In this document: positions 3,754-32,255 of the stretch, one piece after another | How the letters are laid out: every line of letters begins with the position of its first letter | How positions within the stretch are numbered: the first letter of the stretch is position 1 | From: an uncultured Clostridia bacterium | GTDB taxonomy: Bacteria; Bacillota; Clostridia; Christensenellales; Pumilibacteraceae | Assembly (NCBI GenBank): GCA_947589145.1 | Contig: CANQCB010000003.1 | Coordinates: forward strand, 1-32,927 | Direction of reading: 5' to 3' | Length of the DNA: 32,927 bases | Made by a program: the position numbers and the translations under genes | Notes under the pieces: generated by a model | Told to the model about the DNA's origin: nothing | What the model saw: the letters and a program-made list of their open reading frames with translations, nothing else | Databases searched by the model: none

Positions 3754-3792
3754 AAGACTGTTATGAAAAAATCATAACAGTCTTATTTTTTT
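3754..3792 (+). terminator. Rho-independent terminator, possibly bidirectional, between convergent purA and pyrG
   Basis: AAGACTGTTATGA-loop-TCATAACAGTCTT followed by ATTTTTTT. Confidence 0.85.
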
Positions 3793-3890: not shown

Positions 3891-5456
3891 TTAGTCTTTC
3901 GTTTCCGCAACGTCTTTTGCCGCGGAGGAAAGGAACAAAGATATGAGCTTGTCGGGGTGACCTACCTTGGAGTTGAACTCCGGTCTGAAAGTCACGCCGA
4001 CGTGAAATTTATTGGAAGGAAGTTCGAAGGCGTCGATAAATCCGTCATCGGACATGCCGGATATCGAGAGACCGCTTTTAACGAGAACGTCCGCATATTT
4101 CGCATTGATTTCATAGCGGTGACGGTGGCGCATGCCGATCGACGAGCCGTATGCTTTTGCAAGTACGCTTCCTCTTTTTATCGTTGTGAGGTGATTGCCC
4201 TTTTTGAAGGGAGTCGTGCCGCCGCAGACGAGCGGGCAGTCGGTCTCTCCGAATTCGACGCTGTTTGCGTCGGAAAGCCCCGCTACGTTGCGGGCAAACT
4301 CGATCGCTCCCGCCTGCGCTCCGAGCCCTATCATAAGGCAGGGAATATTGTTTTTGCGCGCCGTTTCCGCCGCTGTCAAAGTGCCGTCGAAACCGCGTTC
4401 GCCGAAGCCCGCCGGGAGAATTATGCCGTCGTAACCTTTGAGGTTCTCCCCGTCGGTGAGTTTATCGCTGCTTATCCAATCGAGTTTGAAGGTCAAACGC
4501 AGGTCTATTGCGGCGTATTTGAGAGATTCGTAGAGAGATATGTAGGCGTCGTGCATTTCCACGTATTTGCCGACAATGGCTATCTTCGCCTGTTTGGTCT
4601 TTTTCAGGCTGTATGCGCGACGAACGACCTCTTTCCACTCGGTCAGATCCGCTTCCCTGTCTTCGAGTTTGAGTTTACGGAGAACGGCGGTCGCAAAACC
4701 TGCCGCTTCGAGTTTGAGCGGAATTTCAAGTATGCGGTCGTTGGTGAGGTTTTCGATTATACAGTCGGGGTATACGTTGCAGAACGCCGCCATTTTCTTT
4801 TTACTGCCGAGTTCGAGCGGATAGTCCGAGCGGCACACGATCACGTCGGGCTGTATGCCGACGTTTTGAAGCTCCTTTACCGAATGCTGGGTGGGCTTTG
4901 TCTTTTGCTCGCCGCTCATTTCGATAAACGGAACGTAAGATACGTGAACGTACGCGACGTTATTTTCCCCCGCAAGCACGTTGAGTTGTTTGAACGCTTC
5001 GAGGAAAGGCGTGCATTCGATGTCGCCGACCGTGCCGCCGACGTCTACGATCACTATCGTATCGTCGTCGAATTTGAGAAGTTGGTTGCGTATTTCGTCG
5101 GTGATGTGCGGAACGATTTGCACCGTACTGCCGTCGTATTTACCCTCGCGCTCGTTATCTATTACCTTTCTGTATATTCTGCCGCTGGTTATGTCGCTGC
5201 GCCAATCGAGATTGTCGTTTATGAAACGCTCGTAGTGACCTATCACGAGGTCGGTCTCCGATCCGTCGTCGGTCACGAAAACTTCGCCGTGCTGATACGG
5301 CGACAGGTGCGACGAGTCTACGTTGAAATAAGGGTCGAATTTTTGGAGCGTTACCTTGTAACCGCGCGATTTGAGAAGTGTGCCGAGGGACGCCGCAGTG
5401 ATACCTTTTCCTATTCCCGATACTACGCCGCCCGTCATTACTACGTATTTTGTCAT
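3891..5456 (-). CDS. pyrG: CTP synthase with degenerate glutamine amidotransferase active site
   Basis: 'TGGVVSGIGKGITAASLG', 'SPYQHGEVFVTDDGSETDL', 'KTKPTQHSVKEL' and GATase domain; AGGAGG RBS upstream of ATG. GATase Cys and His are substituted (see findings). Confidence 0.95.
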   Translation of the reverse strand: MTKYVVMTGGVVSGIGKGITAASLGTLLKSRGYKVTLQKFDPYFNVDSSHLSPYQHGEVFVTDDGSETDLVIGHYERFINDNLDWRSDITSGRIYRKVIDNEREGKYDGSTVQIVPHITDEIRNQLLKFDDDTIVIVDVGGTVGDIECTPFLEAFKQLNVLAGENNVAYVHVSYVPFIEMSGEQKTKPTQHSVKELQNVGIQPDVIVCRSDYPLELGSKKKMAAFCNVYPDCIIENLTNDRILEIPLKLEAAGFATAVLRKLKLEDREADLTEWKEVVRRAYSLKKTKQAKIAIVGKYVEMHDAYISLYESLKYAAIDLRLTFKLDWISSDKLTDGENLKGYDGIILPAGFGERGFDGTLTAAETARKNNIPCLMIGLGAQAGAIEFARNVAGLSDANSVEFGETDCPLVCGGTTPFKKGNHLTTIKRGSVLAKAYGSSIGMRHRHRYEINAKYADVLVKSGLSISGMSDDGFIDAFELPSNKFHVGVTFRPEFNSKVGHPDKLISLFLSSAAKDVAETKD

Positions 5457-5464
5457 ATTGCCTC

Positions 5465-6727
5465 CTATTGCTCGCCCTCTACGGTAAAACCAATTTCACC
5501 GAGTTTAATGCTGTTGTATTCTATTACCGAAAGCAGACGGTCGAGTATTCGCTGCGCTTCCGCTTTGTCCGATATGCCGCGAGGCTTCGAGTCCGCGGAG
5601 TTATCCGAGTGCAGATAAAAATTACGCGTCGCGAAGTATTCGGTATACAATGCCGCCATTACTTCGGGATATATCACCGAACGAATGCGCTTCAAATACC
5701 CTTTTTTCAGCGAGTATTTTCCGCTGTCGTCTTTTTCGTATGCCTGCCCGATCATCTTCACGTTTATGTTCTGCGCGTGTTCGAGGTCGTATATGAACTT
5801 TTCGAGCGCGCGACAGGGCGTCATGAGCATGACCGAATAGTCCGAAAGCCTGCCGATGTTGCTTAAATCGGATATGCCGTTCGAAAGGTCGATTTTCGAC
5901 GATTCGGAGAGATATCTGAGCGCGGTAGGCACGTATTTTTTGAGCAATTTCAGGTTGCTCTTGCTTTCGAGTTGGGTTTTGACGTCCGTTAAAAGTCCGC
6001 TTCCCCCGCCTTTGAGCGTGATTGCGCCGCCCTCTTCGCGCCTGACTTCCAAAACGTCTTTGCCCCGCGTGAGCGAGTAATCGACGACCTTTTCCTGCCT
6101 CGTCGTACGGACTTTTACGCCCGATTCCCCGAGATCTTTTATGACCCATTCGAGACGTTTTGCTCCGACGTTTTTGATCGTGATCGTCTTTTCCTGCGGT
6201 TTTCCCTTACTCGGTCGGTTTTCTTTTTTCTGTCCGATGTTTGCTTTTTGGTGAGATTCGGTTTTTTCGGTTTTTTGCCGTTTGGCGGTATTCTGCCCGC
6301 TTTTTGTTTGCGCTTTACCGCCTTGCGGTTGTTCTTTTACGGTTTTTGTTTGCGCTTTGCCCACTTTCGTTTGCTCTTTACCGCTTTGCTGTTGTTCCTT
6401 TACGCGCTCTTTCGGACGATTTGCCGTCGTATTTTGCGTTTGTTTGGGCGCGGGCGGTTTCGCCGGGAGTTTTTGAAACGGCAGGAGCGGTTTGAGCCGT
6501 TCAAGCGCGTCGGGACTGCCGTCGACGGTGAGGATCTTGGCGACGGTGTCGTAAACAAAGGTAAACTTATCCGCGCCCGAAGCGTATTGATAGATTTCGA
6601 GGTGGCTGATAATCGAGGTCGGAGTGAATTTTTTCCTTTCGTATCCCCGACTTTCGATCGCGACGAAGAAAGCGCTTACCGAAAAAGCGTCTACGCCGTC
6701 TATTCGCAATCTTTCCGTCTTTGCCAT
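5465..6727 (-). CDS. RnlA/RNase LS-like protein with C-terminal HEPN-like domain (R-x4-H) and low-complexity K/Q/T-rich linker
   Basis: C-terminal 'RALEKFIYDLE...VMAALYTEYFATRNFYLHSDN' with RNFYLH (R-x4-H) and an upstream helix Glu; two small alpha/beta-looking segments flank the linker, similar to RnlA architecture. Confidence 0.6.
   Translation of the reverse strand: MAKTERLRIDGVDAFSVSAFFVAIESRGYERKKFTPTSIISHLEIYQYASGADKFTFVYDTVAKILTVDGSPDALERLKPLLPFQKLPAKPPAPKQTQNTTANRPKERVKEQQQSGKEQTKVGKAQTKTVKEQPQGGKAQTKSGQNTAKRQKTEKTESHQKANIGQKKENRPSKGKPQEKTITIKNVGAKRLEWVIKDLGESGVKVRTTRQEKVVDYSLTRGKDVLEVRREEGGAITLKGGGSGLLTDVKTQLESKSNLKLLKKYVPTALRYLSESSKIDLSNGISDLSNIGRLSDYSVMLMTPCRALEKFIYDLEHAQNINVKMIGQAYEKDDSGKYSLKKGYLKRIRSVIYPEVMAALYTEYFATRNFYLHSDNSADSKPRGISDKAEAQRILDRLLSVIEYNSIKLGEIGFTVEGEQ
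6306..6410. repeat. Degenerate in-frame repeat (two ~42-bp copies plus a 21-bp partial copy) encoding [VKEQ(Q/P)Q(S/G)GK(E/A)QTK]
   Basis: Units 6306-6347 and 6369-6410 are closely similar, separated by the partial copy 6348-6368; encodes the linker of the RnlA-like protein. Confidence 0.7.
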
Positions 6728-6735
6728 ACGAATTT

Positions 6736-6764
6736 ATTATACTATACTTTACGATAAATTTCAA
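6736..6764 (-). promoter_or_regulatory. Consensus promoter TTGAAA-17-TATAAT for the RnlA-like gene and pyrG
   Basis: TTGAAA at 6764-6759 and TATAAT at 6741-6736 (minus strand), 17-nt spacer; only 8 nt from the -10 to ATG. Confidence 0.75.
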
Positions 6765-6793: not shown

Positions 6794-6828
6794 GAAAATG
6801 CGGCGTTACCTTTCGGACGCCGCATTTC
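6794..6828 (-). terminator. Terminator-like hairpin downstream of the surface protein
   Basis: Minus strand GAAATGCGGCGT-ccgaaaggta-ACGCCGCATTTTC, immediately 3' of the stop codon; weak U-tract. Confidence 0.6.
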
Positions 6829-6842
6829 GGTTGTTTTTAATC

Positions 6843-9800
6843 TCAGTTGTTCTTGGGCTTTCTCTTTCTGAATCTGATGAGGTAAATTATCAAGCCTGCG
6901 ATAAGGAGAACGCCTACGATTATAAGCACGATCGCAAGAGTTGCCGTGGAACTCGACGATATGCTGCTCTTGCCTACTACCGTGATGTACTTATCCGTCG
7001 TCGAAGTGTTGCCCGCAGCGTCGGTTACGCTGTATACGACGCGGTAAGTGCCCGCCTGAGTGAAGGTGTAAGGCTCGGTGCCGCTGTAAGGTCTCGTCTT
7101 GTGGTTTACGGTTACCACAGCATCGCCTGCCGGGTTGTAAAGAACCTTCGAATAGGTGTAAGTCGAACTCTCCGATTCGTCGAGAATGATCTCCGCAAAT
7201 CCGAACGTGTCGTTTACGCTGACTGTGACGTTTTGATCTACGGAAACGTTCTTACCGTTGATCGATCCGATATTTGCGATATGGAATTGCGGCGCGATAA
7301 CGTCGCCTGCTTTTATCGTGAAAGTTGCGCTTGCGGTCTGATCGTTGGGCATCGTCGCGGTATAGGTTACCGTGTACGTTCCGTCTACCTTCGCCTCGAA
7401 CAGGAATTCGTTGCCTACGAGTTCGTCGCCGTCATATCCCGCGGGAAGAACGTCGCCTTTCTTGGTCGTCTCTACTCTGTTGCCGTTGGGGTCCGTAACC
7501 GTTACGGAGATCTTGCTTGCGTTGCTCGTTGCAGAGGAAGCGCTGACGTTGGGAAGTTTTACAAATTCGTGCGTCGTCACGCCGTCTACCGTTTTGGAAA
7601 TCGGAGTGTATGACGGCATGGGTTCGCCGATAACGCGGAACGTTGCCTCAGCGCTATCCGAAGCCGTGGAAGTAACCAAGGTAGCGACGCTCTCGCTTTC
7701 GTTGTCGATGAAATTACCGTTTGCAAGCGACTTGCCCGCATAAACGCCCGTATTGCCGTCCGCATACTTATAAGTTATAAGGCTGTTGTCGGTAGCGTCG
7801 GCATTTTCCGCGGTGCCGTATACAAACGCGTAGTCGCTTATCTGATAGGTTTCGGCGTCCTTTGCGACGAATTCGCTACCCATGAGAGTAAATCTGCCGC
7901 CTTTGATCGAACGAAGTATCCCGATTTTTTCTCCGGTTATCTGAGTGGTGTATTCCGTTTCGAGATAATAAGTTTTGTTTACTTCGATGTCGGTAGGAAG
8001 CGCGGTTGCCGTTCCCGTATCCGCGCTGCCGCTGCTTTCGACAGTCACGAACGCAAGTTTTACGCTGCTCTTGCCAGATACGTGGAAGCCGCGCGCTACG
8101 AGCATATAAGTGCCTGCGGTGGTGGGAGTGAAACGAATGTTATCCACGTGGATAAGAGTCGTGCCGCCCGTGCCGTTATCGCTGTAAGTCTCGAAAGAAA
8201 CTATCTCGTCTTTATTGTCGACGTTCTTGCCGTCGCCGTCCTTAATGCGCTTGACGTACAGTTCGAAGCCGACATAGTTGCGGTTCTCGATCGAGCCGTA
8301 GTCTATGGAGAACGAACCGAAGCCGTATTCCTGTCCGACTTTGCCATTTTCGGAATTAAGTCCGTTGGTAGCGAATACAGGCTCGTAATTAGCGCCCTCT
8401 GCGGTGCCGTCGATGATATCGACTTTTTCCATTTTATATGCGCTTTGACCTACGGAGTCGGTTGCGCGCAACGCTACGTAAGCGCCCTTGGTCAAGTCGC
8501 TTACCGTCACGGTCTGCTCGTCGCCGTTAACGTCGTCCATCGTGAAGGTATGCTCGCCGTCTTCGACTTTGAGCGTCGCAACGTTCGTTCCGGAAGCGGC
8601 GTTGAGCGCGATAGCTTTGCCCGCGTCGAGCCAACCTGCGATCAATTCGTCGGTAATGTTTTCGTCGAACGAAAGATTTTCGTCGCTGTCGGTTGCGTTA
8701 AGGGTCTGATCGAATATGATGTAATATTCCGTTCCGAGACGGGCGTCCTCGCGATCGTTTGCCTTGACGTTCGTTATGGATTGAGTGGTCTCATATTCTC
8801 TGAAAACGAAATAGTCGGGGGTTTCGAAGTTGACGGTCGGGAGCGTGGCGTCGGTAAACGACGAATTAAGTTCGATGGTATAGCTGTTCGACTTGCTGTT
8901 TTTGCCGTCAAAATACGAATATCTGACGTTGTACGTTCCCGTGTTATTGGAATCGTTTATCATGGAGAAGTTGAAGAAGCCCTTCGTGACCTTTTCCGCC
9001 TCGTCGTCATAATAGACAAAGGAATACGTGTTGTCGGGAATTTCCTCGACGTTGCCGTTTATCGTCCATTTACCCGATATCTTGCCGTCCGTTTCGCTGA
9101 CGGTAAATCCGTCCGCTTTGTTATATTCTTCGCTGAGCCAATATCTGAAGAAATAGTAAGTGCTGTCGGTGCTGCCGAAAGACGTGGAGCCGGAAACTCT
9201 CGATCTGCTCGAAGGCTCGGTAGCATATATATTCGAAATGGAAACAAATGTCTTGGTGTTCTGAGAACGCTGCAAATTGAAAGTTACGGTGAGGTTCGAT
9301 TGCCCGTTGTTATCGACGAGTTCGGGAATCGGGAATTGAATGTTGGTATCCGTTACTTCAACGGTAGCGCTTGCGTTTTCCGCGTCCTGCTTGTTGACTC
9401 TGAGTCCCCAAGCGGAAGGAATAAGGCTCTGATCGAAAGACTTGACTACGGGAGCGGTGGTATCCGACGCGGTAAGAGTGAAAGTCTGCGCGGCAATATC
9501 TTCGCCGTTACCCGTGCTGTCGATCACGCTGTAAGAAAGTCTGTACGCTCCGTCCTCGGTGGGATAGAACGACATGAAGTTGCTGTTATCGAAAATGGCG
9601 GGGACCGCTTCGGCAATGTCCGTCGTCGTCTCTCTCTCGCCTTCCGCGGTGTAAGAGTAGCGCTCGGTCGTGCCTTTCTTGTAATACAACGATTTATCGT
9701 TCGCGTCCTTAGCCGCATAGCCGGTGGACTTGTCCACTACCACTTCGGGAACGTCGTATTCCGTGCCGTCGTAGGTGTGCTTGACGGTTATCCGAGTTAC

Positions 9801-10601
9801 GACGCGATTACCGTCGAAGTTATCCGTTACGGTCGCGGGCTGAATGTCGAACTTCGTGTTGGTCGAACTGTTCTGCGTAACGCCGTTTACCGACATGGTA
9901 GGCGCTTTGGTATCTTCGAATTTATCCTGTACTTGCACGGTATAGTCGACGCTTTCGATATTATCGCCGCCGCCCACTTTTGCATAGTACGTTATGAAAT
10001 ACATACCGTTCTCTTCGGGGGTGATCTCAACGCCCTCGTCAAGTTCGGCCTTGCTGTGCTCTTCCGTTTTGCCGGAAGGTAACGTTATCTTTGCGAAAAT
10101 ATTATTGCCGCCGTCCTCCGCTCTTACGGGAAGAAGCGCCTCCTCTTCCTCGTCGTTATAGTATAACGTTGCGGTGGGAAGCGTAAACGCGTCGGAATTT
10201 GCGCGATATGTCGGAACTACTACTTTGCTGTTGTCGACAACGAGCTTGTATTCATATTCCATATAGCATTCCACGCCGTAGGTATAACTTGCATACTCGC
10301 CCTGATCTTCGACGGTAAACGTAATCTCGTAAATACCGACCTGATTGGCGGTTACCTTGTTGCTTTCCGGCGTAATTTCTTTTCCGCTCGGATCGGTAAC
10401 CGTTACCGTTGCGCCAACCGACGTGGGAACGGTAATTTCATCGCCGTACGCTACGCGATCGACTATTTTGGCGTCGACGATTTCCGTTGCCTCGGCGGCA
10501 TTTACGGGTCTTTGCCCGATAAACGCGCCGGTCATTATAAACGCAAACGCCATAATAATCGCTGCCGCTACGGCAATTATTTTGCTTAATCTTTTAGACA
10601 T
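6843..10601 (-). CDS. Large secreted, membrane-anchored surface protein with Ig-like (Big/HYR-like) repeats
   Basis: N-terminal signal peptide (MSKRLSKIIAVAAAIIMAFAF...VNAAEA); repeated 'GTYTVTYTAT..', 'GTYRVVYSVTDAAGNTS' motifs; C-terminal TM plus basic tail (IVLIIVGVLLIAGLIIYLIRFRKRKPKNN); no LPXTG. Confidence 0.85.
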   Translation of the reverse strand: MSKRLSKIIAVAAAIIMAFAFIMTGAFIGQRPVNAAEATEIVDAKIVDRVAYGDEITVPTSVGATVTVTDPSGKEITPESNKVTANQVGIYEITFTVEDQGEYASYTYGVECYMEYEYKLVVDNSKVVVPTYRANSDAFTLPTATLYYNDEEEEALLPVRAEDGGNNIFAKITLPSGKTEEHSKAELDEGVEITPEENGMYFITYYAKVGGGDNIESVDYTVQVQDKFEDTKAPTMSVNGVTQNSSTNTKFDIQPATVTDNFDGNRVVTRITVKHTYDGTEYDVPEVVVDKSTGYAAKDANDKSLYYKKGTTERYSYTAEGERETTTDIAEAVPAIFDNSNFMSFYPTEDGAYRLSYSVIDSTGNGEDIAAQTFTLTASDTTAPVVKSFDQSLIPSAWGLRVNKQDAENASATVEVTDTNIQFPIPELVDNNGQSNLTVTFNLQRSQNTKTFVSISNIYATEPSSRSRVSGSTSFGSTDSTYYFFRYWLSEEYNKADGFTVSETDGKISGKWTINGNVEEIPDNTYSFVYYDDEAEKVTKGFFNFSMINDSNNTGTYNVRYSYFDGKNSKSNSYTIELNSSFTDATLPTVNFETPDYFVFREYETTQSITNVKANDREDARLGTEYYIIFDQTLNATDSDENLSFDENITDELIAGWLDAGKAIALNAASGTNVATLKVEDGEHTFTMDDVNGDEQTVTVSDLTKGAYVALRATDSVGQSAYKMEKVDIIDGTAEGANYEPVFATNGLNSENGKVGQEYGFGSFSIDYGSIENRNYVGFELYVKRIKDGDGKNVDNKDEIVSFETYSDNGTGGTTLIHVDNIRFTPTTAGTYMLVARGFHVSGKSSVKLAFVTVESSGSADTGTATALPTDIEVNKTYYLETEYTTQITGEKIGILRSIKGGRFTLMGSEFVAKDAETYQISDYAFVYGTAENADATDNSLITYKYADGNTGVYAGKSLANGNFIDNESESVATLVTSTASDSAEATFRVIGEPMPSYTPISKTVDGVTTHEFVKLPNVSASSATSNASKISVTVTDPNGNRVETTKKGDVLPAGYDGDELVGNEFLFEAKVDGTYTVTYTATMPNDQTASATFTIKAGDVIAPQFHIANIGSINGKNVSVDQNVTVSVNDTFGFAEIILDESESSTYTYSKVLYNPAGDAVVTVNHKTRPYSGTEPYTFTQAGTYRVVYSVTDAAGNTSTTDKYITVVGKSSISSSSTATLAIVLIIVGVLLIAGLIIYLIRFRKRKPKNN

Positions 10602-27702: not shown

Positions 27703-28191
27703 TCACAACAGCGTATAAATCTTTCGCGCGAAATTCACGCGTTTGACGTACTCCGCCGTTTCGGGGAACGGAGCGCCGCCGATTTTCCAACTCATGACGT
27801 TGGAATATCCCGCGTTATACGACATGAGCGCGTCGGTCTCGTCGCCGCAAAGGTCAAGGAGATAGCGAAGATAGGCGCTGCCGAGGAGAATTTCGCTTCG
27901 CGCGCTTCCGTCCGCCGCTATCCCCTCGCGCTCGGACACCCACGCCCGCGTGCTCGGCATGAGTTGCATGAGTCCGCTCGCGCCCGCCTCGCTCGTCGCA
28001 GTCTCGTCGTATTTGCTTTCCGTCCATATTACCGCGCGAATCAGCGCTTCGTCGAGCTCGTATGCCCGAGCCGCCTCGGCTACCTCTTTGTCGTAAGCCA
28101 ACGGAAAAAGCGACGACGTGACGAAATAAAAAGCCGCTATCGTCATGATAACGGCAAATATCGCTATGCTTGTTTTAGTCTGTTTAACCAT
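27703..28191 (-). CDS. Lytic transglycosylase (SLT/Slt70-like), N-terminal signal/TM
   Basis: 'LIRAVIWTESKYDETATSEAGASGLMQLMPSTRAWVSE...LGSAYLRYLLD...ALMSYNAGYSNV'. Confidence 0.94.
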   Translation of the reverse strand: MVKQTKTSIAIFAVIMTIAAFYFVTSSLFPLAYDKEVAEAARAYELDEALIRAVIWTESKYDETATSEAGASGLMQLMPSTRAWVSEREGIAADGSARSEILLGSAYLRYLLDLCGDETDALMSYNAGYSNVMSWKIGGAPFPETAEYVKRVNFARKIYTLL

Positions 28192-29336
28192 TGCGCCATC
28201 AGCTCCTTTGCCTGCCGATGAAGCGACTCGATATTCTCGCTCGTCACCGTGACGTCCGCGAGAGAGGAACGTTCCCCGTCGTCGAGTTGCCGCGCCGAGA
28301 TGGAAGCGAACGTTTCCGCGGTTATGCCGTCGCGCTTCGCCGCGCGGTTTTCCCTCACTTCGTAAGGCGCGGAGACGTTCACGCAGACGTCGGCGACGTT
28401 TTGCAATCCGCTCTCGTAAAGCAGCGGAATTTCCGCCACTCTTATTTGAGCGTCCGAACGCGCGATCTCCTTTTTGAGCCGCTCCGCCACCGCCGGGTGC
28501 ACTATGTTTTCCAACGTTTTGAGTTTGCTCGAGTCCGAAAAAACCATGCTTTTAAGCGCGCTTCTGTCGAGTTTTCCCTCTTTTACCGCGTCGGGAAACG
28601 CTCGTTTTATTTCGACGTTTACTTCGCCGCCTTCCTTTTGCAATTCGTGCGTCACTTTATCGGCACTTATAGTATACGCGCCCAGCGCTTCGAGCATACC
28701 GACGAAGGTACTTTTTCCGCTCGCTATGCCGCCCGTCACCGCAACGACGAGATATGGCGGCGTGCAACCGCAATAATGCTGACGGTATATGCCGTATTTT
28801 GCGCAAAGTTCTTTTATGCGCAGGTTGCCGCCCTCTTTTTTGAAGTCCGACGGCAGATTTTTCACGCCGAATTTTTCGGAGAGTTCTGACATTTTTTCGT
28901 TGAGAAACCGGGCGTCTTTGAGGGGGCTCGACGTGAGCGTGGTCGTAAAATAATCGTAACCCTCGGCCGCCGCCTTTTCGGCGGTCCTTTCGAGGCGCGC
29001 CGCACAACAAAGGTCGCACTTCTTTCCGCGCTCTTTGCCGCCTTTTTCCTCGCCCACCGCGTCGTCGTATTCCTTTCTGTCGTAAGGCTCGACGATTATC
29101 GGCGTTTTCGGGCTGAGCGCGGCGACGAGTTTCCGCACTTCGCCGAGTCTTTTTTCGAATTCCGCTTCGGGATATATGTTCGGGTTGTAAAAATATACCG
29201 TTATATCGAAAAACCGCGTCAGAGATTGCAACGCCGCGGACAGGCAGGGCGCGCAACAAACGTGCAAAAGGAGACGGGGGCGCGTTTCAAGCGCCTGCGT
29301 TATCCTCTTGTATTCGCGATTGTAATCGGTTTTCAT
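28164..29336 (-). CDS. Fusion: QueH (epoxyqueuosine reductase, DUF208) N-terminal domain and dephospho-CoA kinase (CoaE) C-terminal domain
   Basis: QueH motifs 'LLLHVCCAPC', 'GKKCDLCCAARLE', 'YRQHYCGC' followed directly by CoaE 'VAVTGGIASGKST', 'VHPAVAERLKKE', 'EIPLLYESGL'; one uninterrupted frame. Confidence 0.92.
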   Translation of the reverse strand: MKTDYNREYKRITQALETRPRLLLHVCCAPCLSAALQSLTRFFDITVYFYNPNIYPEAEFEKRLGEVRKLVAALSPKTPIIVEPYDRKEYDDAVGEEKGGKERGKKCDLCCAARLERTAEKAAAEGYDYFTTTLTSSPLKDARFLNEKMSELSEKFGVKNLPSDFKKEGGNLRIKELCAKYGIYRQHYCGCTPPYLVVAVTGGIASGKSTFVGMLEALGAYTISADKVTHELQKEGGEVNVEIKRAFPDAVKEGKLDRSALKSMVFSDSSKLKTLENIVHPAVAERLKKEIARSDAQIRVAEIPLLYESGLQNVADVCVNVSAPYEVRENRAAKRDGITAETFASISARQLDDGERSSLADVTVTSENIESLHRQAKELMAQWLNRLKQA

Positions 29337-30397
29337 TCTTCCGCCTCGCTCAATTTTGCCGTTATATCCGCTATTTTAAGCGCGTCCAACATTTCGGAAA
29401 TGTCGCCGTTCATAAAATCTTCGATATTGAACAGAGAAAGTCCTATTCTGTGGTCGGTCACTCTGCCCTGCGGAAAATTGTAGGTGCGAATGCGCTCGCT
29501 CCTGTCGCCCGTTCCCACCTGACTTTTACGCTTGTCCGAGTATTCCTTTTCCGCTATGGAGTTATAATAATCGTATACGCGCGCTTTCAGCACCTTCATC
29601 GCCTTGTCGCGGTTCTTCATCTGACTGCGCTCGTCCTCGCAACATACCACTATGCCCGTTGGCAAATGCGTCATGCGCACGGCGGAATCGGTTTTGTTTA
29701 TGTGCTGTCCGCCCGCGCCGCCGCTTCTGTATGTGTCGATCTTGACGTCTTTGTCGAGAATCTCCACGTTTACGTCCTCGGCTTCGGGGAGGACGGCAAC
29801 CGTGACCGTCGAGGTGTGTATCCTGCCCTGCGTTTCCGTCTCGGGTACGCGCTGAACGCGATGAACGCCGGACTCGTATTTCAGCCGACCGAAAACGCCG
29901 TCGCCCGACAACATGAATACCGCCTCTTTCACGCCGCCGAGTTCGGTGACGTTCATGCTCATATCCTCCCAACGATAACCCACGCGGTCGGCGTACATTT
30001 TATACATACGCATGAGATCAGCGCCGAAAAGAGCGGCTTCCTCTCCGCCCGCGCCGCCGCGGATTTCTATTATCACGTTCTTGTCGTCGTTCGGGTCCTT
30101 GGGGAGCAACAGAATTTTGAGTTCGCTTTCCAACCGCTCTATCTCCTTGCGTTTCTCGTTTATTTCTTCTTCCGCGAGGTCGCGCACATCGGGGTCGGAA
30201 AGCAGTTCGCGGGCCGCCTCTATGTCCTTTTCGGCGCGGCAAAGTTCGCCGTACTTTTCGGCTATGGGAGAAAGAGAGGTGTGCTCTTTGCAAAGTTTGC
30301 TCCAATTCGCGGTGTCGGCTATCACGTCGGGGTCGGCTATTTGCTTTTCCAACGTTTGGAAGCGTTGCAATATGGAATTCAATTTTTCTTTATTCAT
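29333..30397 (-). CDS. prfA: Peptide chain release factor 1
   Basis: 'SGGAGGQHINKTDSAVRMTHLPTG', 'RVQRVPETETQGRIHTSTVTVAVLPEAEDV'; ATG 30397 after AGAGGAG RBS preferred over the 30421 start. Confidence 0.96.
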   Translation of the reverse strand: MNKEKLNSILQRFQTLEKQIADPDVIADTANWSKLCKEHTSLSPIAEKYGELCRAEKDIEAARELLSDPDVRDLAEEEINEKRKEIERLESELKILLLPKDPNDDKNVIIEIRGGAGGEEAALFGADLMRMYKMYADRVGYRWEDMSMNVTELGGVKEAVFMLSGDGVFGRLKYESGVHRVQRVPETETQGRIHTSTVTVAVLPEAEDVNVEILDKDVKIDTYRSGGAGGQHINKTDSAVRMTHLPTGIVVCCEDERSQMKNRDKAMKVLKARVYDYYNSIAEKEYSDKRKSQVGTGDRSERIRTYNFPQGRVTDHRIGLSLFNIEDFMNGDISEMLDALKIADITAKLSEAEE

Positions 30398-32255
30398 CGC
30401 CGCTCCTCTTTCGCGCGACAATCACTCTGTCGCTGCCGCCGAGATCCTTGATTACCCGAATGTCCGTGAAAGACTTGCGAAGGAGTTCGCATACGTCCGC
30501 CGCTTGGTCGTGCCCTATTTCCAATACGATCGCGCCGTTTGCCGAAAGGTGTTCGGGCGCGCGCTCGGCAATTATACGATAAAAGCGCAATCCGTCTTTG
30601 CCGCCGTCCAGAGATATTCGCGGCTGACAGGTCACTTCCCTTTGCAAACCGTCTATTTCGTCGGTGCGGATATACGGCGGGTTGGACACTATCACGTCGA
30701 AAGTGCCGTCTATTCCGTCGAAACAATCGCTCTCGATAAGCTGTACGCCGACGAGGTTACTCGCCGCGATTTCCAATGCCGACGCGGAGATATCCGACGC
30801 GGTTATTTTCGCCCCCGTCCTCTCGATTAGCGCACGCGCAATGCAGCCGCTTCCCGTCATAAGGTCGAGGGCGGTTTTCGCGCCCGACTCGTTTATTACG
30901 TCCGCCGCGGTGAGCGCGGTCACTTCGGTCTCCATTCTCGGGAGATGTACGCTTTCGCCGACTTTTATTTCGTAACCGAGAAAGTCCGACTTGCCCATCA
31001 CGTAGTCGAGGGGTTTGCCCTCCGCGCGCGCCGATGATAACTCTTTCATGCGCGCCGTCTGCCGTTTCGTGAGTTTTTCGACGTGCACGAGTTCGTTGCG
31101 CTTTACTCCGAGGACTTCGCAGAGCAGCCAATCTATCTCGGAAGCGTCGTCGATTTTCGCTTCGCCGTACTTCTTTTCGAGATATTTCCGCGCGTCTTTC
31201 ATCGTCATTTCATAGAAATCCACGGTCGGCACGGACGGGTCGTTATCCATTTCGAGAACCTTTCGGAAGGCGACGATCGCCGCTTCCGCCATGCCGTCGT
31301 CGGGCTTTTTGGTCGTGAGCGCTTGAAGCGCGAAACCCGGCGCTTTGAATATGAGGAAAAATTTATTGTCGGGCGCTTTCGCTATGAGTTTCAGCAGTTC
31401 GTAGGACAGCCCCGCGATCACGGGCAAACAGGCAATGCCTATACCCATGCCTATGAGATTGTACAAAAAGCCGCCGAGAGTTTCGCCGCCCACGCATCCG
31501 ACGATAAAAGAACGCGAAAGCCCGCAAACGGATATCACCCACGTCACGAGCGTCATGACGAATACGCTGATGATGACGGTATAAAACAGAAAGGTCGTGC
31601 CGCAACGGGCGTGGCGCGTGGAGCAACTCTGCACGTTCTCCACCGTGAGTTCGAGGTTGTGCTCGTAACAATTTATCGTTCTGTGCTCCGCGCCGTGATA
31701 CATATAGGTGCGCTTTATGTCTTTGATTTTACTCGTGAGCCAAAGATAGAGAATGAGAATTACGACTCGGAAAAAGCCTTTTAACAGGCACATTATGAGT
31801 ACGTAGAGGTTGTCGGAGGATTCCATGCCCGTGCTCGGCACTATCCAAAGGTCGAGAATGAGCCAATTCAGCAGCATGGGCACGGCGATAAAAAGCCCGA
31901 CGGCAAACACTATCGCAAGGAGTACGGCGAGAAACATTCCGCCCTTGCCCAATTTTGCCTCTTCGTCGTCTCCCGCGTATACTTGCGCCGACTTGTTGAT
32001 GTATTTTACGCCGCCGACAAGCGACGATACGAAAGATACCACGCCCCTTATAACGGGTACGCGGCGATACCATTTCGAGGCGCCGTCGTTACGCTCGGTG
32101 TATAAGGTGAGCTCCCCTTTCTCGTCACGGCAACAAAGCGCGGTCGCCGTTTTTCCGCGCATCATTACGCCCTCCAAAAGAGCCTGACCGCCGATATAAC
32201 TCGGCGTATATGCGCCGGGGTTCTTCCACTCCGATTTTTTCTTGTCCTTTTTCAT
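30390..32255 (-). CDS. Fusion: DUF1385 membrane domain and PrmC (release factor N5-glutamine methyltransferase)
   Basis: N-term 'YIGGQALLEGVMMRGKTATAL' and polytopic DUF1385 region; C-term 'PRMETEVTALTA', 'ALDLMTGSGCIARAL', 'FDVIVSNPPYI' of PrmC. Confidence 0.92.
   Translation of the reverse strand: MKKDKKKSEWKNPGAYTPSYIGGQALLEGVMMRGKTATALCCRDEKGELTLYTERNDGASKWYRRVPVIRGVVSFVSSLVGGVKYINKSAQVYAGDDEEAKLGKGGMFLAVLLAIVFAVGLFIAVPMLLNWLILDLWIVPSTGMESSDNLYVLIMCLLKGFFRVVILILYLWLTSKIKDIKRTYMYHGAEHRTINCYEHNLELTVENVQSCSTRHARCGTTFLFYTVIISVFVMTLVTWVISVCGLSRSFIVGCVGGETLGGFLYNLIGMGIGIACLPVIAGLSYELLKLIAKAPDNKFFLIFKAPGFALQALTTKKPDDGMAEAAIVAFRKVLEMDNDPSVPTVDFYEMTMKDARKYLEKKYGEAKIDDASEIDWLLCEVLGVKRNELVHVEKLTKRQTARMKELSSARAEGKPLDYVMGKSDFLGYEIKVGESVHLPRMETEVTALTAADVINESGAKTALDLMTGSGCIARALIERTGAKITASDISASALEIAASNLVGVQLIESDCFDGIDGTFDVIVSNPPYIRTDEIDGLQREVTCQPRISLDGGKDGLRFYRIIAERAPEHLSANGAIVLEIGHDQAADVCELLRKSFTDIRVIKDLGGSDRVIVARKRSGDE

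Follow-up and report, generated by a model that had tools for sequence, protein, structure and literature searches.

Textbooks count CTP synthase among the housekeeping enzymes, and the gene described here raises the question of what a bacterium does with a CTP synthase whose glutaminase site has been dismantled. The gene lies in a 32,927-nucleotide stretch of DNA from an uncultured gut bacterium of the class Clostridia, family Pumilibacteraceae (hereafter the window), at positions 3891–5456 on the minus strand, where it forms a 521-aa frame with no internal stop. We refer to the gene as pyrG2 and to its product as PyrG2. The initial annotation proposed that this enzyme is either ammonia-dependent or repurposed.

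Active-site residues of PyrG2

We numbered the residues by alignment on PyrG of Escherichia coli MG1655. PyrG2 is homologous to the E. coli enzyme over its full length, with 42% identity and most ATP/UTP contacts in common, and it shares the fold of E. coli CTP synthase, to which its AF2 model aligns with a TM of 0.93. In contrast to E. coli PyrG, it lacks the catalytic Cys-His pair, its PGGFG and GTP-site loops are altered, the tunnel loop Pro49-Gly50-Thr51 and Asp72 are lost, and the gene is an extra genomic copy. The three glutaminase changes named in the initial annotation are all present, at exactly the codons it gave. Gly377 replaces the catalytic Cys379 (4326–4328, minus strand; LMIGLGAQ versus LGICLGMQ in E. 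coli), Arg491 replaces the catalytic His515 (3984–3986, minus strand; FRPEF versus FHPEF) and the PGGFG loop reads PAGFG, with Ala349 in place of its first Gly (4410–4412, minus strand). Glu517 is retained, so that the triad is incomplete and reads Gly, Arg, Glu; the alignment to E. coli PyrG offers no substitute Cys or His for these positions. The protein matches the NCBIfam profile TIGR00337 with 607.7 bits (cut-off 462.75), and annotation pipelines would name it a “glutamine hydrolyzing CTP synthase”, a name contradicted by its active site and almost certainly wrong.

Two N-terminal stretches had also been described as drifting. VVSGIGKG is no such case, since the genome's intact pyrG has VVSGLGKG at this place. 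The change from VDPGTMSP to VDSSHLSP is genuine and common to the whole PyrG2 clade; it places Ser48-Ser49-His50 in the ammonia tunnel/GTP loop where E. coli has Pro49-Gly50-Thr51 (5307–5315, minus strand). Moreover, Val71 replaces Asp72 in the synthase active site (5244–5246, minus strand). This replacement, the second, intact pyrG and the RnlA-like neighbour described below were all absent from the initial annotation.

We then compared 42 PyrG2 sequences with 62 canonical CTP synthases. The glutaminase changes are shared by these 42 sequences, isolate genomes included: Cys379 is Gly in 41, and His515 is retained in only six. Sequencing or assembly error is thus ruled out, as had been argued from the single sequence. 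In the synthase domain, 112 positions are invariant among the canonical proteins, and six of them are lost in at least 90% of PyrG2 sequences, namely Pro49, Gly50, Thr51 and Asp72, together with the conservative changes Ile116 to Val and Val235 to Ile. Asp72 is present in all 62 canonical sequences and is Val in 41 of the 42 PyrG2. Position 140 holds Glu in 30 and Asp in 12 of them, and the transferred-phosphate pair Asp72/Glu140 is therefore not preserved. No new conserved acidic residue was found near position 72 in the 42 sequences, and the only one gained in the synthase domain is a Glu at position 181.

The ATP/UTP contact set as a whole is preserved. K18, K40, D147, E149, K187, K189, K223 and R211 of this set, as well as Q114, are unchanged in essentially all 42 PyrG2, D42 is unchanged in 39 and H57 in 40; K223 is presumably a nucleotide contact. 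Asp303, in the region of the adenosine contact, is retained in only 24 of the 42. Most of the other residue roles used here are taken from work on Drosophila CTP synthase (PMC8325340), in which Asp70, the counterpart of Asp72, touches the transferred phosphate via water, and mutants of the neighbouring Lys16 and Lys38 have strongly reduced activity. GTP activation has been linked to residues that include Thr51 and Met52, and the 429–440 loop also has a role in it (PMC9138612). Thr51, Gly351 and the 436–441 loop are not preserved in PyrG2, and Asn475, Arg478 and Gln513 are further losses in its glutaminase (GATase) half. At the former nucleophile elbow, a new common pattern of M377, G379, A382, A384 and G385 occurs in 36–41 of the 42 sequences. 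The glutamine-pocket residues Gly352, Phe353, Glu403 and Arg/Lys470 are mostly retained, and it is possible that PyrG2 binds glutamine without hydrolysing it.

PyrG2 is hence more than a dead GATase domain joined to an intact synthase site, because Asp72 and Pro49-Gly50-Thr51 are altered too. These comparisons strongly support the loss of glutamine-dependent CTP synthesis, and PyrG2 is probably unable to complete the synthase reaction efficiently.

Paralogy, distribution and constraint

The window genome (1.32 Mb in 129 contigs) contains a second, canonical pyrG, which neighbours dapF on a different contig, has all motifs intact and encodes a product with 48% identity to PyrG2. This intact copy makes the window copy an extra gene and rules out that pyrG2 is the only pyrG of the genome. 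We searched 74 genomes of the family (Pumilibacteraceae / Candidatus Protoclostridium) and contigs of named genomes. PyrG2 with the same substitutions was found in 46 of the 74 genomes, a count based on residues for the loci that were read and, for the rest, on identity rank plus a position beside rnlA. Among the named carriers are species of Candidatus Protoclostridium, and cultured isolates are represented by Pumilibacter muris, P. intestinalis and Anaerocaecibacter muris. Most genomes with PyrG2, the window genome among them, also have a canonical pyrG. Seven other family genomes yielded no pyrG (G009, G010, G023, G024, G027, G044 and G045), some of them at least 90% complete; de novo CTP synthesis may have been lost there, or the gene may fall in assembly gaps.

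PyrG2 forms one clade in synthase-domain trees, with an SH-aLRT value of 100 and, in a second tree, support of 100/100; a quick synthase-domain tree was built without positions 49–51 and 72. The trees put this clade outside the family's own canonical pyrG and make it sister to the canonical pyrG of other Clostridia, with moderate support (92/89). A single origin of the clade is well supported by these sequences. PyrG2 was found in the window's family only, and a DNA motif for the change of Asp72 to Val matched no other genome in a 399-genome sample of the phylum; as a control, the matching Asp motif was found in 53 of the 79 genomes of a class sample, so that the power of this search is real, if not full. 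When presence of PyrG2 is placed on the RnlA tree, at least five changes fall on the starred branches, and close relatives differ in it (G038/G026, G021/G035 and G017/G033). PyrG2 has thus been lost repeatedly within the family.

We estimated substitution rates by comparing the window genome with its closest relative; the canonical pyrG genes of this pair of genomes served as reference. In the synthase domain, dN is 0.024 for PyrG2 and 0.020 for canonical pyrG, and in the GATase domain it is 0.223 and 0.051, respectively. The dN/dS of the PyrG2 synthase domain is about 0.02, like that of the housekeeping copy; dS is near or above 1, which leaves such ratios rough, while the contrast in dN is clear. 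By these rates, the synthase half appears to be under demanding constraint and the GATase half relaxed but not free.

The RnlA-like neighbour and its partner position

Directly upstream of pyrG2, on the same strand, lies an rnlA-like gene (5465–6727, minus strand) encoding 420 aa. The Shine-Dalgarno sequence of pyrG2, AGGAGG, can be read directly at 5461–5466 (minus strand), 4 nt before the pyrG2 ATG, where it overlaps the rnlA stop codon TAG. The AF2 model of the RnlA-like protein (pLDDT 80) has two alpha/beta domains, a low-complexity, disordered linker at about residues 86–180 and a helical HEPN RNase domain. The profile PF19034 (RnlA toxin DBD/HEPN) matches its C-terminal part weakly, with 24.3 bits for the protein and 27.1 in a genome search, and matches two family members with 37.1 and 35.4 bits, over the cut-off of 27. 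In Foldseek, the nine best PDB matches of the model are all E. coli RnlA, with E-values of 3e-11 to 6e-11 against 6y2p/4i8o and a best value overall of 2.7e-11. The TM to E. coli RnlA is only about 0.3, with the relative placement of the domains not reproduced, and this differing placement is probably the cause of the low value. Taken together, profile and predicted fold assign the neighbour to the RnlA family. The catalytic HEPN motif R368-N-F-Y-L-H373 (5609–5626, minus strand) is of the RxxxxH type, and all 40 family RnlA-like proteins compared have its R and H, whether or not the genome carries pyrG2.

The gene occurs in 65 of the 74 family genomes (42 of 43 when only the good genomes are counted); in a class-level sample, only 8 of the 391 other genomes yielded RnlA. 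PyrG2 and the rnlA-like gene occur together in 45 of the 46 PyrG2 genomes, and in the remaining one (G054) the contig ends just upstream. Of 20 pairs examined, 19 have pyrG2 immediately downstream of rnlA, and the other has one ORF in between; in G491, a radical-SAM gene sits between the two. A search for RnlB gave no match in any of the 74 family genomes. The same search in seven other Clostridia genomes with RnlA, run as a control, found RnlB in six, each of which has one of its matches immediately downstream of rnlA. Since pyrG2 stands downstream of rnlA and rnlB fills that slot elsewhere, PyrG2 takes the antitoxin gene's position.

The pair resembles RnlA-RnlB (RNase LS, the anti-T4 system of E. 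coli) in that a partner gene stands in tandem with the gene for an RnlA-like HEPN RNase, which has two alpha/beta domains in its N-terminal part. It differs in having a CTP synthase paralog at the partner position and no RnlB match in the family, and in that rnlA is nearly family-wide rather than sporadic, with PyrG2 lost while rnlA stays. In fact, 20 family genomes keep the rnlA-like gene with neither PyrG2 nor an RnlB match, and RxxxxH is intact in those of them that were aligned. In a type II toxin-antitoxin system the toxin is not kept without its antitoxin, but rnlA is here kept without PyrG2, which disfavours PyrG2 as an obligate antitoxin. A different, unrelated antitoxin may be encoded elsewhere in these 20 genomes. 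PyrG2 seems to need RnlA and not the reverse, and its repeated absence beside intact rnlA agrees better with the role of a partner for tuning or sensing than with that of an obligate antidote. A known defence system was also considered and rejected: PADLOC gave no match for PyrG2 and only a weak Cas13-ApeA match (E 0.028) for its neighbour. As a separate observation, G009 and G010, which are of the same genus and have no PyrG2, carry a PemK/MazF-type toxin gene beside rnlA on the opposite strand (L063:5967–6323, identified by Pfam, and L064:4114–4479, by clustering).

Several other elements surround the pair. A promoter-like TTGAAA-17-TATAAT (6736–6764, minus strand), a consensus match only, at 11 of 12 positions, ends 8 nt before the rnlA ATG, and a comparable site precedes rnlA in the closest relative (L101); by sequence, rnlA may be near-leaderless, its transcript starting without a leader. 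Beyond it lie a 12-bp inverted repeat (6796–6827), a possible terminator, and a gene for a large surface protein that combines Ig-like domains with a hydrophobic stretch at the C terminus (6843–10601, minus strand). The protein cluster of the latter is present in 38 of 41 loci, and the gene is nearly always just upstream of rnlA in family genomes, often with a homoserine dehydrogenase gene further upstream. On the other side, a 13-bp inverted repeat with a T-run (3754–3784) between the convergent purA and pyrG2 is a possible shared terminator. The window further contains two gene fusions, both on the minus strand: QueH (epoxyqueuosine reductase) with CoaE (dephospho-CoA kinase) in one 390-aa frame (28164–29336), and a 621-aa frame that joins a DUF1385 membrane protein to a PrmC-type methyltransferase (30390–32255).

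Possible functions of PyrG2

Of the two options in the initial annotation, repurposing has proved the better half. Simple ammonia-dependence is weakened by the intact pyrG, by Val in place of Asp72 in nearly the whole clade, by the loss of Pro49-Gly50-Thr51 and by the behaviour of sole-copy GATase-dead enzymes described below. The adjacent RnlA-family RNase gene suggests what PyrG2 was repurposed for. Our preferred reading, to which we give somewhat less than an even chance, is that PyrG2 is a nucleotide-binding, catalytically impaired CTP synthase recruited to regulate the RnlA-like RNase. PyrG2 would bind pyrimidine nucleotides and ATP, a capacity predicted from residue conservation; in its ligand-bound form it would restrain or tune the RNase, and RNA cleavage would thereby be coupled to the nucleotide state of the cell, as in starvation or phage takeover. 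In a more specific form, which we put forward only tentatively, a CTP synthase has become a nucleotide-sensing regulator of an RnlA-type RNase in the place of RnlB, a switch read by pyrimidine pools. The genetics of the locus (paralogy, residue changes, domain constraint, linkage and the lack of an RnlB match) are well supported by sequence comparison, while the physical interaction of PyrG2 with RnlA, the direction of control and the ligand are what we infer from them; operon linkage alone does not prove a joint function. The open-licence literature that we searched held nothing relevant linking CTP synthase to HEPN or antiphage systems, to pseudoenzymes or to toxin-antitoxin systems.

The rival that survives best is an ammonia-dependent CTP synthase isozyme working on free gut ammonia, with the linkage to rnlA incidental or regulatory. 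The slow evolution of the synthase domain would agree with it, and other lineages of the family have apparently moved to GATase-dead CTP synthases. We found seven such further enzymes (G040, G032:C18, G092, L195, G019, G018 and G034), of at least five separate origins in the tree, and saw rnlA next to none of them. For G018, G034 and G019 the GATase-dead copy is the sole pyrG found (L218:2789–4447, Cys to Gly; L219:2778–4403, Cys to Ser; and L217:2872–4467, Cys to Gly, respectively). These genomes have few class-I GATase matches, one or two each, and the GMP synthases of G019 and G040 are without a GATase domain, which suggests that the lineages of G018, G034 and G019 live on free ammonia. All seven enzymes have lost Cys379 and changed Thr51, but they keep Asp72, and the candidates with a single pyrG keep Pro49, both of which are lost in essentially all PyrG2, along with Gly50. 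Judged by their residues, these Asp72-keeping enzymes are plausible ammonia-dependent CTP synthases and better candidates than PyrG2. Furthermore, the window genome has its intact pyrG, and PyrG2 was never found without rnlA, save in the one genome cut at a contig edge. We consider such an isozyme unlikely, and leave it some weight because the effect of Val for Asp72 on catalysis is a prediction. A CTP synthase of another kind was seen in Oscillospiraceae (L184:5695–7515), in which Glu517 of the triad is replaced by Cys (HPCL versus HPEL) with Cys379 and His515 intact.

It is improbable, in our view, that PyrG2 carries out a new chemistry as a nucleotide modifier, by ATP phosphate transfer or UTP coupling, with a product that controls the RNase or serves elsewhere. 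The retained Lys18 and Lys40, the strong purifying selection on the synthase domain and the new motif at the nucleophile elbow are compatible with an active enzyme, but Asp72 is gone, the only conserved acid that the domain has gained is the Glu at position 181, with none near Asp72, and the literature searched yielded no relative that performs such chemistry. There is also little to recommend regulation of canonical PyrG through mixed tetramers or filaments, with the adjacency to rnlA a regulatory convenience. The entire CTP synthase fold is preserved in the AF2 model and the canonical copy coexists with PyrG2 in most carriers, but PyrG2 is linked to rnlA and not to pyrG, and in the trees it falls outside the canonical pyrG of the family. 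That PyrG2 is a duplicate in decay, retained by chance beside a conserved gene, is very improbable: the repeated losses and the relaxed GATase domain could be read in this way, but the comparison of dN/dS, with the synthase domain as constrained as that of the housekeeping copy, largely refutes it, and the new GATase motif is conserved across the clade.

Regulation of the RnlA-like RNase by PyrG2 can be put to the test, since the cultured Pumilibacter muris, P. intestinalis and Anaerocaecibacter muris carry both rnlA and pyrG2. If it is true, it would suggest a controller for an RnlA-type RNase in a family where no RnlB was found, and PyrG2 would stand as a clear example of a sensor that arose from a metabolic enzyme.
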